Shown here in pieces: positions 7,932 to 50,545 of a DNA stretch of 50,545 bases. The DNA is from an uncultured Verrucomicrobia subdivision 3 bacterium (GTDB lineage: Bacteria > Verrucomicrobiota > Verrucomicrobiia > Limisphaerales > UBA11358), in NCBI GenBank assembly GCA_903865745.1, contig CAIPKV010000018.1, positions 1 through 50,545 of the forward strand, written 5' to 3'. The first letter of the stretch is position 1, and each line of letters opens with the position of its first letter. The notes beneath the pieces are model-generated. The model saw only the letters and a program-made list of their open reading frames with translations, was not told the DNA's origin and ran no database searches. The position numbers were made by a program, and so were the translations under genes.

Positions 7932-8975
7932 TTATCCCTGCTTCTGGTTTTGATACAAGGCGACTAACGCCGCGCCGATCGCCTGCGAGAGCTCACCGAG
8001 TTCTGCGGGCACAATCTTGAGAGTGTCCCGCTGCTGCGGCCAAAGGTACGGGTGCGCCGACTCGCGGATGAGGCGCAGATAGCGTTCGCGAAACTCCGGC
8101 GTCGTCGTCTCGTGATCCATCAAGCCGCCGCCGATGACGAAAATGCCCGGGTCCAGCGCCATCGCTAGATTCGCCACGTGCAAACCCATGACGCGGGCCT
8201 GAAAATCGAATATCTCCACCGCCAACGCGTCGCCCTTTTGCGCGCGACCGCGCAGCGACAACACCTTTTCCTTCATCGGTGCCTCCGACTTCGCCAGCTC
8301 GTGGTCGGGATACTTCAACAACTTCTCCGCCAACAAATGCGGCAGACCGGAAATCGTCGTGTACGCCTCCACACAGCCCCAGTCGCGACCGCAACCGCAC
8401 GGGAACGGCTTCCCCGTCATGCCCAACAGTTGCAACGGCACCGGCATGTGCCCCGCTTCCATGCCCGCGAGCGTATCGCCGTCCAGCGAGAGACCGTCCG
8501 CGCCGACGAAGGCCGCGCCCAAGCCGGAGCCGGGCATGAGCATGGCGACCGACACCTGCGACTGGCCGCGCGCGAGCCGCGCCTCCGCCACGCCGCCATA
8601 ATTACCGTCATTGCCCACCACGAGCGGCACCGGGTGGCCAATCTGTTTGGCAATGGCCGCATGATAATCCGAATACACATCCCAACCGGAGAAGCTGGCG
8701 GGCAGATTCGGCGATTTGCCAAACACGCCGTAGCGTTCGTACGGACCGGGAATCGCGAGGCCGACCCCCGCGACCTGTGACCAGTTTAAATTGTTTTGAA
8801 CGAGGAATTCGCCGATGCCCGCGATCCAACCGGCGATGACGGCGGCGCGGCCGTTCTGCGAATTGGTGGGACGCTGCAAGACTTTGCTGGAAACGGGTTC
8901 GCCATCGGCGCGCACGGCGGAGAATTTGGTGGTGGTGGCCCCGCTATCCGTGCCAATGAAAATCTGTTCGCTCAT
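7932..8975 (-). CDS. ROK family sugar kinase (glucokinase-like)
   Basis: Cytosolic ATP-dependent hexose kinase of the ROK family, 347 residues. The N-terminal phosphate loop IGTDSGATTTKFS, the catalytic region VVGNDGNYGGVAEA (Asp acting as base), GMEAGHMPV with the sugar-binding Glu-Gly-His, and the zinc-binding CGCGRDWGCVEAY motif are all present; no N-terminal HTH occurs, so it is an enzyme and not a ROK repressor. Substrate cannot be told from sequence; glucose is commonest. It opens a two-gene unit with ribH, and its start faces a large 21-bp repeat array placed between it and the divergent holB gene. Confidence 0.85.
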   Translation of the reverse strand: MSEQIFIGTDSGATTTKFSAVRADGEPVSSKVLQRPTNSQNGRAAVIAGWIAGIGEFLVQNNLNWSQVAGVGLAIPGPYERYGVFGKSPNLPASFSGWDVYSDYHAAIAKQIGHPVPLVVGNDGNYGGVAEARLARGQSQVSVAMLMPGSGLGAAFVGADGLSLDGDTLAGMEAGHMPVPLQLLGMTGKPFPCGCGRDWGCVEAYTTISGLPHLLAEKLLKYPDHELAKSEAPMKEKVLSLRGRAQKGDALAVEIFDFQARVMGLHVANLAMALDPGIFVIGGGLMDHETTTPEFRERYLRLIRESAHPYLWPQQRDTLKIVPAELGELSQAIGAALVALYQNQKQG

Positions 8976-9028
8976 GATTGGCGGTTAAAGTGGGGACACC
9001 CACGGTAAAGGCAAGAAATATTTGGTAG

Positions 9029-9048
9029 TTGAGGGTGGGAAGTTGAGC
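9029..9048. repeat. 'ttgagggt' simple-sequence copy
   Basis: TTGAGGGTGGGAAGTTGAGC lies between the ROK gene and array B. It is the same kind of simple sequence found inside queE at 26541-26578, suggesting one dispersed low-complexity family. Confidence 0.5.
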
Positions 9049-9094
9049 GTTGCGGGCCGAACCCGACGGCCAGCCGCCCGGTTTGCTGCCATTG

Positions 9095-9514
9095 GGAACA
9101 GGTTCCGCCTCACTGGGAACAGGTTCCGCGTGGTTTGGAATGTGTTCCGGACGGTCTGGAACAGGTTCCCAGCGTCTCGGAACCGACCCCGCGTGGTCGG
9201 GAACAGGTTCCGCGTCATTGGGAACAGGTTCCGCCGGGTTCGGTAAATGTTCCAGAAGGTTTGGAACAAGTTCCGAATGGGTTCGAACCCATGAATTTTG
9301 CCTTGGAAGTACTCACGCGCGGCGCGGAACCCCTCACGCGTCGTCTGGAAGTACTTCCGCAGCTCGCGGAACCCCTCACGCATGACGCGGAACCTCTCAC
9401 GCGTCACGCGGAACCCCTCACGCGTCGCTTGGAAGTACTTCCGCGGCTTGCGTAACCTCTCACGCGTGACGCGGAACCCCTCACGCGCGACGCGTAACCT
9501 GTTCCGCGTGGCTT
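9095..9514. repeat. 21-bp tandem array B (20 units)
   Basis: Twenty consecutive units of exactly 21 bases run from 9095, each beginning GGAAC, GGAAG or GTAAC; a weaker unit follows to 9535. Two subtypes cluster: GGAACAGGTTCCGCG types dominate 9095-9283, while GGAACCCCTCACGCG and GGAAGTACTTCCGCG types dominate 9305-9493. Many units contain a dyad (GGAAC...GTTCC, or the perfect GGAAGTACTTCC at 9347 and 9431). It occupies the divergent region between the ROK kinase and holB (8976-9705). Long open frames on both strands give heptad peptides such as RNLFPTT, which I treat as by-products of the period. The remaining sequence of this gap (9536-9705) shows nothing recognisable. Confidence 0.95.
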
Positions 9515-9705
9515 GGAAAGGGTGGCCAACCGTGGGTGACAGGTTCGGAACCGCCTGTAAGACAGCCGGTTGCACTTAAAAGGCCCTTTTTATGGCGCGC
9601 GCGCGGTTTTTAATCAACCGGGCTTGGACCCGTTGCCCGCCCCAGATAATCATCGACAAGCGGAATGGCCAGTTTTAGGGTTGGAACCGAAACGCTTTAA
9701 CCAGC

Positions 9706-10731
9706 ATGGCTTTCACCCAATTTTCTGACCAGTCCCAGGGCGTCCAGCTCTTGCAACGCTCGCTCGCTCGCGGCCGGCTCGGCCATGCCTACCTCTTCTC
9801 CGGCCATCAGCTCGAAACCCTCGAGACGCTCGCGCGTACCCTCGCCAAAACGCTCAACTGCCAGCACCCCGTCCAGACCGCCGGCGTCGCGACGGATTGC
9901 TGCGATGCCTGCCCGAATTGCCAGAAAATCGATAATGATGCCCACGCGGATATTCACTGGGCACGCGCGGAGTCTAAGTCGCGGATCATTTCGGTGGACC
10001 AGACCCGCGAACTCTCGCGCGAGATCCAACTGAAGCCGACGGCGGGCGGCTATAAGATTGCCATCATCGCGGGCGCCGACCGGCTGAACGCGCAGGCGGC
10101 GAACGCCTTCCTCAAAACGTTGGAGGAGCCGCCGCCGAAGTCGGTCTTGATCTTGCTGACCACGGAGCCTTCACGCATCTTGGAAACGATTTTGTCGCGT
10201 TGCCTGCGCTTGAACTTCTCTGCTGAATCCGCGCGTCAGCTTTCCACTGAGCAGGCGATCTGGTTGCAACAGTTCAGCTCCGCCGCCGCCGGGGAACAGA
10301 AGAGTTTGTTCGGGCGTTATCGCCTGCTGGATGCGTTGCTCCAACATCTCACGGCGCTCCGCGCCCGCGTGGAGGAGACGCTGTCCGCGCGCTCGCCCTT
10401 GGAGAAATATAGCGACGCGGAAAAGGACCTGCGCGAGAAGTGGGAGGAGGAATTGAAGGCGGGCATCGAGGCGGAGTACCGGCGTCAGCGCGCGGAGGTC
10501 CTGCTGTTGTTGCAATGGTGGCTGCGGGATGTTTGGTTTTGGACGTTGGCGGCCGGGGAAGAGTTGTTGCACCTGCCGCAAATCGCCGGGGCCGATGAGG
10601 TGGCCAAACGCATCAGCCCGCGTCAGGCGGAGGCGAATCTGTCGGTGCTGGAACAAACCCAGCGGCTGCTCCATAGCAACGTGCAGGAGGCGCTCGCGCT
10701 CGAAGTCGGCCTGCTAAAACTGCAGCTTTGA
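9706..10731 (+). CDS. holB: DNA polymerase III delta' subunit-like clamp loader protein
   Basis: Clamp-loader component that helps place the beta clamp on primed DNA. The 341-residue protein shows the AAA+ arrangement of delta': HAYLFSG in place of a functional P-loop (degenerate, as is normal for delta'), a zinc cluster CCDACPNC (about 66-73), the ISVDQTRELSREI region, NAFLKTLEEPPPKSVLILLT with sensor-1 Thr residues, and the SRC element. The C-terminal half is helical and weakly conserved. It is the first plus-strand gene after array B and is followed after 4 bases by the O-antigen ligase-like gene, with which it is probably co-transcribed. Confidence 0.85.
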   Translation: MAFTQFSDQSQGVQLLQRSLARGRLGHAYLFSGHQLETLETLARTLAKTLNCQHPVQTAGVATDCCDACPNCQKIDNDAHADIHWARAESKSRIISVDQTRELSREIQLKPTAGGYKIAIIAGADRLNAQAANAFLKTLEEPPPKSVLILLTTEPSRILETILSRCLRLNFSAESARQLSTEQAIWLQQFSSAAAGEQKSLFGRYRLLDALLQHLTALRARVEETLSARSPLEKYSDAEKDLREKWEEELKAGIEAEYRRQRAEVLLLLQWWLRDVWFWTLAAGEELLHLPQIAGADEVAKRISPRQAEANLSVLEQTQRLLHSNVQEALALEVGLLKLQL

Positions 10732-23603: not shown

Positions 23604-23876
23604 GGTGAGATATCAGCAACCGTCGTTTGTGGTATGACCAGCGTGGTTTGCTTATCAACAAGGGTGGCTTGTCTACCAACCAGCCGCGTTTGTCGTACAA
23701 CAACGTCCGCGTGTTGATTAACAACCGAGGCTTGTTGTGCAGCAGACGGCATGGGTTGTATGACAGCCGGCGATTGTTTATCAGCAAGCCACGTTTGTCG
23801 TATAACAAAGCCCGCTTGCTGTACGACAAAAGACGTTTGTTGTACAACAAACGTCGTTTGCTTATCAACAAGAGGT
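23604..23876. repeat. 21-bp tandem array C (13 units)
   Basis: Thirteen units of exactly 21 bases run from 23604 (starts at 23604, 23625, 23646 and every 21 bases to 23856). The core resembles TTGTNGTACAACAA and is self-complementary; the unit at 23835 contains the perfect 18-base palindrome GTTTGTTGTACAACAAAC. It lies in the 459-base gap (23534-23992) upstream of the histidine kinase and downstream of the ABC permease. Frames stay open on both strands because the period is a multiple of three. Beyond it, 23877-23992 holds only a TGGGACAGTTTT motif also seen near array D. Confidence 0.95.
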
Positions 23877-23992
23877 CATGTTCGTCTGTTGTGGCGGGGA
23901 TGTTTTATCGAAAACCGGCTGGTTCACAACGCTTTCCACGAAAATACCAATAATGGGACAGTTTTTTGGGCTAATCTGGTGAGGAGGCAATT

Positions 23993-38598: not shown

Positions 38599-38871
38599 GA
38601 AGGCAAATTATCCGCGCTAGACGACCATAAAGTCTGACTAGAAGGTTATCTCTTCCCAAGAGACAGCCATCGCTCGCGGAGAGTAGGCTCTCACTCCCTG
38701 AGCGAAGGTCATCTCTCTCGAAGCGGACGCCTTCTCTCCCTGAGCGAGACCCTTCGCTCCCCGAGAGACAGCCTTCGCTCCGCACTAGAAGGTCATCTCT
38801 CCGCGAGTGAGAGCCTTCTCTTCCGGAGTGAACGTCATCTCTTCGGGAGAGAGAGCCTTCTCTCGCGGAGA
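38599..38871. repeat. 21-bp tandem array D (13 units)
   Basis: Thirteen units of exactly 21 bases (starts 38599, 38620, 38641 and every 21 bases to 38851), the first two degenerate. Two motifs tend to alternate: AAGGTCATCTCT and GAGCCTTCTCT, each followed by a purine-rich end such as CGCGGAGA, giving CTCT...AGAG dyads within and across units. It lies in the 590-base gap between purH and the tolC-like gene (38441-39030). The rest of the gap has a small inverted repeat at 38923-38985 and no gene. Confidence 0.95.
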
Positions 38872-38922
38872 TATTACGTTTTCGCCGAGCTCGAAAGCCT
38901 CCTAACGCCGCTTTTTAGGTGA

Positions 38923-50389: not shown

Positions 50390-50450
50390 AGCCGGTTTCC
50401 CGCCGCCCGCTGGCCAACATTTAACCGTCGGAACAGCCGTTTCGCTGCCG

Positions 50451-50545
50451 GTCGAACACGATTATCTACGTGTCGAAGACGATTATCTACGTGTCGAAGA
50501 CGATTATCTACGTGTCGAAGACGATTATCCACGTGTCGAAGACGA
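50451..50545. repeat. 21-bp tandem array E (near-perfect, cut by window edge)
   Basis: Four complete units begin at 50451, 50472, 50493 and 50514, and a fifth is cut by the window end. Units differ by only single changes (AACACG versus AAGACG; TCTACGT versus TCCACGT). Each has GTCGAAGAC, a dyad with GAA as loop, and GATTATCTACGT. A possible degenerate unit precedes it (50430-50450). It lies 61 bases after sufS. Confidence 0.95.

Follow-up and report, generated by a model that had tools for sequence, protein, structure and literature searches.

Why should the gap between two divergent genes, those for a ROK family sugar kinase and for HolB, the delta' subunit of DNA polymerase III, be occupied by a long series of in-phase 21-bp units? 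The original prediction for this locus was that the series, here called array B, consists of 20 units in two halves, appears to have grown by duplication of multi-unit blocks, and could act as a multi-site operator of the two neighboring genes. We analyzed array B within the 50,545-nucleotide stretch of DNA in which it lies (hereafter the window), and compared it with other arrays of the same genome and with corresponding loci of related genomes. Judging by its best ROK relatives, the genome is probably that of a member of Limisphaerales (Verrucomicrobia subdivision 3).

Array B Consists of Two Block-Duplicated Halves

Array B reads in a 21-bp register as 20 units covering positions 9095 to 9514, without a single break of phase, and the predicted division into two halves was recovered (Table 1). 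Among units 1–9, the core sequence GGAACAGGTTCC is exact in five, carries one mismatch in one, and is more degenerate in three; allowing at most one mismatch, it occurs seven times in the window, all seven within array B, compared with 0.18 occurrences expected. In the second half, GGAAGTACTTCC units starting at 9347 and 9431 are, as had been claimed, interspersed among units of the GGAACCCCTCACGCG type, and a hybrid unit starts at 9305. Mean identity between units is 0.65 within units 1–9 and 0.68 within units 11–20, in comparison with 0.52 between the halves.

The stretches 9326–9367 and 9410–9451, which the original prediction had singled out as similar, are 90% identical. With P values computed by shuffling the order of the units, units 1–9 show a 5-unit (105-bp) periodicity (identity 0.79 at lag 5, P value 0.007) and units 11–20 a 4-unit periodicity (identity 0.83 at lag 4, P value 0.012). 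TRF reports a period of 84 bp with 84% match and 0% indels for 9312–9518, and a BLAST self-comparison aligns the array with itself at a shift of 84 bp (84.6% over 123 bp) and of 105 bp (84.2% over 76 bp). Higher-order block structure is thus present, the duplicated blocks of 84 and 105 bp being seen both by BLAST and by the unit lags and that of 84 bp also by TRF. The units of array B are, in addition, self-complementary (z 4.0, P value 0.002).

Table 1. Features of array B and its surroundings, and the other period-21 arrays of the window
Feature	Position	Strand	Description
Array B, units 1–9	9095–9283	.	GGAACAGGTTCC-type palindromic 12-bp core and variable 9-bp spacer
Array B, unit 10	9284–9304	.	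In phase, of neither type
Array B, units 11–19	9305–9493	.	GGAACCCCTCACGCG-type with GGAAGTACTTCC units; 4-unit (84-bp) repeat
Array B, unit 20	9494–9514	.	Hybrid (GTAACCTGTTCCGCGTGGCTT), last clear unit
Leader after array B	9510–9640	+	Homologous to C13, 79% over 131 bp
Tail	9621–9686	+	80% over 66 bp to sequence 3' of the 221-aa gene of C82
ROK family sugar kinase gene	7932–8975	-	Neighbor of array B
holB, DNA polymerase III delta'	9706–10731	+	Neighbor of array B
Promoter-like block of ROK	8986–9014	-	TTGCCT, 17 nt, ACTTTA; outside the array; putative
Array A	1–168 or further (to ~260)		
Array C	23616–23890		
Array D	38627–38906		
Array E	50401–50545		

The Array Is a Gene-Less Copy of a Dispersed Module

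Array B has two sister loci in the genome, C13 (L121:10475–10998) and C82 (L185:4163–4443), and a more distant one, C61 (L282). At C82, array, leader, a 221-aa gene, and tail follow each other in this order, and its units are arranged in the same manner as those in the second half of array B. The window copy has the array, the leader, and the tail without the 221-aa gene and ends at holB; the first 86 bp of its leader (9510–9595) match the C82 leader between array and gene at 78%. The C13 sister is gene-less as well and aligns with the window through the leader and the sequence beyond; it shares its units and 3' flank with array B and lies between the 3' ends of convergent predicted genes. Across C13, C61, and array B, half-sites change in pairs, giving GGAAC/GTTCC, GGAAG/CTTCC, GGGGT/ACCCC, and GGGGC/GCCCC, and C13 also contains units altered in one arm only.

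Genes following arrays elsewhere in the genome include three families, F1–F3 (see below), of which the C82 sister has a member downstream. Since such a gene is absent downstream of array B, we term the array a gene-less copy and do not count it as a full member of the module. Array B is accordingly a gene-less copy of a dispersed module of array, leader, and gene, the gene being known from C82. It looks like a leftover of this module and less like a switch for its present neighbors, and we infer that the gene was lost from the window copy instead of being gained in C82.

Period-21 Arrays Form a Genome-Wide Class

We searched 1,033,207 bp of the 3.63-Mb genome (the window plus L109–L128 and L164–L203) for tandem arrays using a plain lag test that required at least 55% match over 84 bp. 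Period 21 yielded 46 arrays, and its multiples 42 and 63 yielded 43 and 42; no other period from 5 to 80 exceeded nine, period 22 having four and period 20 one. Extrapolated from this sample, the whole genome may hold ~160 arrays. With genes predicted by our own hexamer gene finder, period-21 arrays overlap with genes over 8% of their length, where 83% of the DNA is coding. The 32 classifiable among the 46 arrays lie in 21 tandem, 8 divergent, and 3 convergent gaps, in comparison with 148, 56, and 35 among all gaps of at least 150 bp; divergent gaps are not favored by the arrays.

Unit sequences mostly differ between arrays and only small groups are alike; the window itself contains five period-21 arrays whose letters are unrelated to each other, and the contig both starts and ends inside such arrays. 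In one pair of arrays (L124:11–147 and L171:10040–10352), the left flanks are 98.5% identical over 137 bp and the arrays align over 42 bp only, as if the array content had been exchanged and the flanks had stayed. Sequence stretches sampled from further families of the order also gave arrays with periods of 20–22 (one in G026, five in G035, and one in G032), but there periods of 18, 24, and 27 are about equally common, as in coding DNA.

An Operator of the Neighboring Genes Is Not Supported

The predicted role as a multi-site operator of ROK and holB was not supported, and we consider it highly unlikely. Array B does occupy a divergent gap, and the leader and tail of the module end just before holB. 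Against these stand the C13 sister, placed in a convergent gap, the indifference of the arrays to gap orientation, and the position of the conserved upstream sequence of ROK. The latter, a block of ~50 bp conserved in several of 25 aligned relatives, is clear of array B. Its window copy contains TTGCCT-N17-ACTTTA, for which relatives such as L001 have TTGCCT-N17-AATTTA; since a consensus scan of 8950–9760 found no sigma-70 consensus sites or terminators, we regard it as a putative ROK promoter only. DNA similar to array B was likewise absent among the best 10 or fewer candidates in each of 58 other genomes.

In the 25 ROK loci of relatives, no clear array was found in the 1.5 kb before the gene (L012 is borderline, with 46 of 84), and no period-21 array was found at holB in 24 same-genus loci. 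Within the flanks available, holB is near ROK in one of the 25 ROK loci (L020, ~4 kb away) and ROK is near holB in none of the 24 holB loci; with the two genes so rarely adjacent, the gap between them is not widely shared. Array D precedes purH, whose upstream block resembles that of some relatives and lies downstream of the array. The purH–tolC gap is without an array in seven relatives, being only ~65–160 bp in five and wider in two. Given these holB loci and tolC–purH gaps, both arrays seem to have arrived locally; each lies upstream of a gene without containing that gene's conserved upstream block. One same-genus genome (G014) has another 21-bp array directly before purH (L154:12400–12800), its letters unrelated to those of array D, so that the two arrays either arrived independently or were turned over where they stand. 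Array B could be a set of phased protein-binding sites belonging to the missing gene of its module.

Arrays Are Linked to Families of Downstream Genes

The three families F1–F3 encode proteins of ~205–240 aa and follow no more than 11 of the 46 arrays sampled. Three of five F3 proteins match Pfam fn3 (E values 5.2e-10, 0.00018, and 0.0016, of which the first alone passes the curated cut-off), and the F3 profile matches Fn3 structures in PDB, the Fn3-like domain being C-terminal; the N-terminal part of the array-linked proteins appears helical from its sequence. The F1 and F2 proteins scanned had no Pfam match. In a profile comparison, A1 and A3 were related (E value 6.6e-5, probability 64%) and A2 was linked to neither, and homology of F1 or F2 to F3 was not established. 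Among 10 proteins, three gave weak matches to PHROGs phage tail families (L168, 3.1e-06; L189, 6.1e-06; L185, 0.003), those of L168 and L189 covering the Fn3-like end; these matches make a structural role of the protein possible. No PADLOC match was found for nine proteins, and we rejected a defense system; an origin from phages or viruses was rejected likewise, as there was no DNA match in phages or viral contigs and, for the one protein searched, none in plasmids.

F1 has three copies in the genome, all three with an array upstream. When the three profiles were run against the ORFs of the sample (2741 reading stop to stop over 110 aa or more), they recovered 12 members: 11 were those from which the profiles had been built, all preceded by a 21-bp array, and the twelfth (L187:1636–2277) has a 20-bp array upstream (L187:2389–2548). 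To measure the linkage independently, we used members that had not contributed to the profiles and scored arrays with a period of 20–22 within 1 kb, excluding from the totals L187 and the members for which fewer than 300 bp were available upstream (L289, L359) or downstream (L410, L389). For F3, an array was present upstream in 47 of 68 cases and downstream in 3 of 68; the best repeat above the limit had another period between 15 and 30 in no case upstream and in three downstream. In relatives alone, the counts were 34 of 54 upstream and 3 of 54 downstream, 20 of the 54 having no detectable upstream array. Period-21 arrays accompanied F2 genes upstream in 27 of 35 and downstream in 0 of 34 cases, and in three further members the best upstream repeat had another period (16 or 28). 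Outside the order, arrays of period 20–22 were found upstream of F3 genes in 6 of 9 cases and downstream in 1 of 10.

Counting the genome of the window, F3 is present in 16 of 40 genomes, with 20 copies in that genome and 14 in G014; of these 40, 13 contain F2. Across 387 genomes of the phylum, scored for the best eight candidates per genome, at least four have F3, again including the genome of the window. In 16 same-genus genomes, sampled by stretches of 20–80 kb each that were picked regardless of arrays, arrays of period 20–22 were seen in five of nine genomes with F3 and in none of seven without it (one-sided P value 0.029); three of these seven (G002, G003, and G020) hold F2 genes. One module is common to three species (L332, L351, and L353), its genes being 80–87% identical and the upstream sequence with the array 66–71%. 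In several relatives (L337, L348–L350, L290, and L304), the sequence right before the Fn3-family gene would encode a short peptide with many TYD..YDD or TWN..G..W motifs; a small gene may thus separate the array from the main gene.

Units Are Mostly Palindromic and Rigidly Phased

The consensus unit is self-complementary in 34 of the 46 arrays (P value ≤ 0.05, mean z 3.0 in comparison with column permutation), 12 lacking a significant dyad, and among the module arrays 53 of 71 have a dyad z above 2. Each unit has two dyad axes, with 0.57 bits at the middle of the odd-centered and 0.88 bits at that of the even-centered axis (31 arrays); given the more variable middle of the odd-centered axis, units can usually be described as even palindromes separated by a spacer that is short and variable. 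Covariation within units is weak: the mean excess is +0.023 at one axis, with 22 of 31 arrays positive, and +0.012 at the other, with 15 of 31 positive.

Phase is kept over long distances. The match at lags of 21k is 0.58 for k = 1 and still 0.50 for k = 7, and at lags of 21k ± 1 it is 0.26–0.28 over the same k. Within arrays, 4121 mismatches to the consensus were accompanied by 4 phase slips, and in the flanks 285 mismatches by 14 gap openings. This depletion is an upper estimate, as the ungapped detector favors in-phase arrays; in the flanks, some related pairs were counted more than once, and the contig-end overlap of L109 and L124 was left out. Alignments of sister arrays were gapped in 6 of 16 cases, four having a single gap of 21, 21, 21, or 42 bp and the remaining two a pair of 1-bp gaps each.

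Discussion

The fixed spacing of two helical turns together with the palindromic units is best explained by a symmetric protein binding to one face of the DNA. Array B may well be a solo copy of the module that retains putative palindromic protein-binding sites in helical phase, a reading whose chances we put at about even. Palindromic double-stranded sites exactly two helical turns apart would lie upstream of the module's own gene, and a symmetric (dimeric) protein would bind all of them on the same face. The sites within an array would be alike because units multiply by duplication of single units or multi-unit blocks and drift by substitution, and shifts that break the phase would be removed. 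In the window, the gene would have been lost and the array, leader, and tail left between ROK and holB. The diversity of the palindromes counts against the proposed binding, as a single protein could hardly recognize such different sequences. The weak covariation within units, the arrays lacking a significant dyad, and the arrays and F3 genes that occur without each other also weigh against this reading. As to the diversity, either the modules might have binding proteins of their own, or recognition might be by shape and spacing. We tentatively extend this reading to a new class of gene–array modules, in which a private palindromic array would be read by a co-diverging protein, either the gene product or a partner, with array B as an orphaned member. 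On the same tentative footing, the geometry (21 bp and dyads) would be fixed and the sequence free, and modules would expand, move, and lose genes.

Growth without any bound protein is one alternative. A neutral or selfish satellite could expand by replication or recombination, with its dyads arising from template switching between quasi-palindromic arms and its gene linkage from joint movement. The unit and block duplications agree with this, as do the near-identical left flanks of L124 and L171 beside mostly unalignable arrays and the appearance of arrays B and D as local arrivals. A constant period among unrelated arrays, the scarcity of phase slips, and the retention of an array upstream of related genes in three species are, however, not easily accounted for by a satellite, which we find rather unlikely. 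The arrays could also be the ends or recognition arrays of a mobile element, to which a transposase or recombinase would bind, with the gene as cargo or as part of the machinery: copies are dispersed with shared flanks, the gene-less layout is common to the window and C13, and the gap occupied by array D is narrow in five relatives. No target duplication or transposase was shown, though, Y1_Tnp genes number only two in this genome and more in 28 of 39 others, and no relative was found in viral contigs or, for the one protein searched, in plasmids, all of which makes a mobile element unlikely; on the same Y1_Tnp counts we disfavored a RAYT/IS200 origin. One Y1 transposase gene (G000:C16:16134–16472) lies near an array–gene module (C16:16706–17705).

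Two further explanations are a transcribed array of hairpins and a coding repeat. If transcribed, units could pair over the odd-centered axis with its variable center and form a series of RNA hairpins. This is improbable, with pairing of just 0.58–0.63 at arm positions 5–8 and hardly any local compensation around this axis; no Rfam family matched within array B, and the sole match in 8500–10000 was below threshold and outside the array. A coding repeat of seven codons per unit appears very unlikely, even though the gene strand is unusually open: one stop-free frame covers at least 95% of the array in 46 of 71 module arrays, an open frame exists in 51 of 71 compared with 34.9 after column permutation, and stop trinucleotides on this strand are fewer in 41, more in 22, and tied in 8. 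The remaining 25 module arrays are not covered by one frame, gaps of 3 bp between sister arrays are lacking, and the third position is not relaxed, with 0.90, 0.87, and 0.91 bits at codon positions 1–3 in the 29 module arrays having exactly one open gene-strand frame. A codon-phase signal was seen in 6 of the 46 sampled arrays (P value ≤ 0.05).

Returning to phased binding sites, the arrays share features with several known systems. Plasmid iterons are tandem, in-phase binding sites ~two helical turns apart, a layout common to both, whereas here very many chromosomal arrays have differing sequences; their neighbors are ROK and holB at array B and assorted genes elsewhere. REP and BIME elements are palindromic, intergenic, and multi-copy like the period-21 arrays; they are linked with RAYT transposases and have a consensus common throughout the genome. 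The period-21 arrays differ in having no common palindromic consensus, mainly geometry being shared, and in a genome with only the two Y1_Tnp genes. Tandem operators of transcription factors, too, lie upstream of genes and have regularly spaced palindromic cores, but array B has 20 sites, the palindromes vary between arrays, and promoter-bearing gaps are not preferred. Bacterial minisatellites, or VNTR loci, change their copy number by whole units and blocks, as these arrays do; unlike them, the arrays keep one fixed period across unrelated sequences, carry dyads, and are linked to gene families. Spacing and symmetry that are kept while the letters are free, together with linked families of poorly annotated proteins, do not fit REP elements, iterons, CRISPR, or minisatellites as we know them. 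We found no description of such arrays in the literature searched, from which subscription journals are mostly missing, so that this absence is weak evidence. If the arrays are read by their own proteins, they would be natural orthogonal, phased DNA-binding systems with many addresses per genome and a test bed for the co-evolution of proteins and satellites; even if they are neutral, a mechanism that measures two helical turns is needed.

Other Repeats in the Genome

Repeats with other periods were also observed. Four period-22 arrays have similar units (L118:11915, L166:17846, L175:9646, and L196:14421), of the CCCGAGGGGTC type in three, and two arrays have a period of 41 bp (L123:13946–14302 and L167:10690–10965). 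Period-7 repeats of the GATTTACG type occur at L164:7233, L166:10905, L177:12914, L191:19619, and L193:10699, apparently as inverted pairs.
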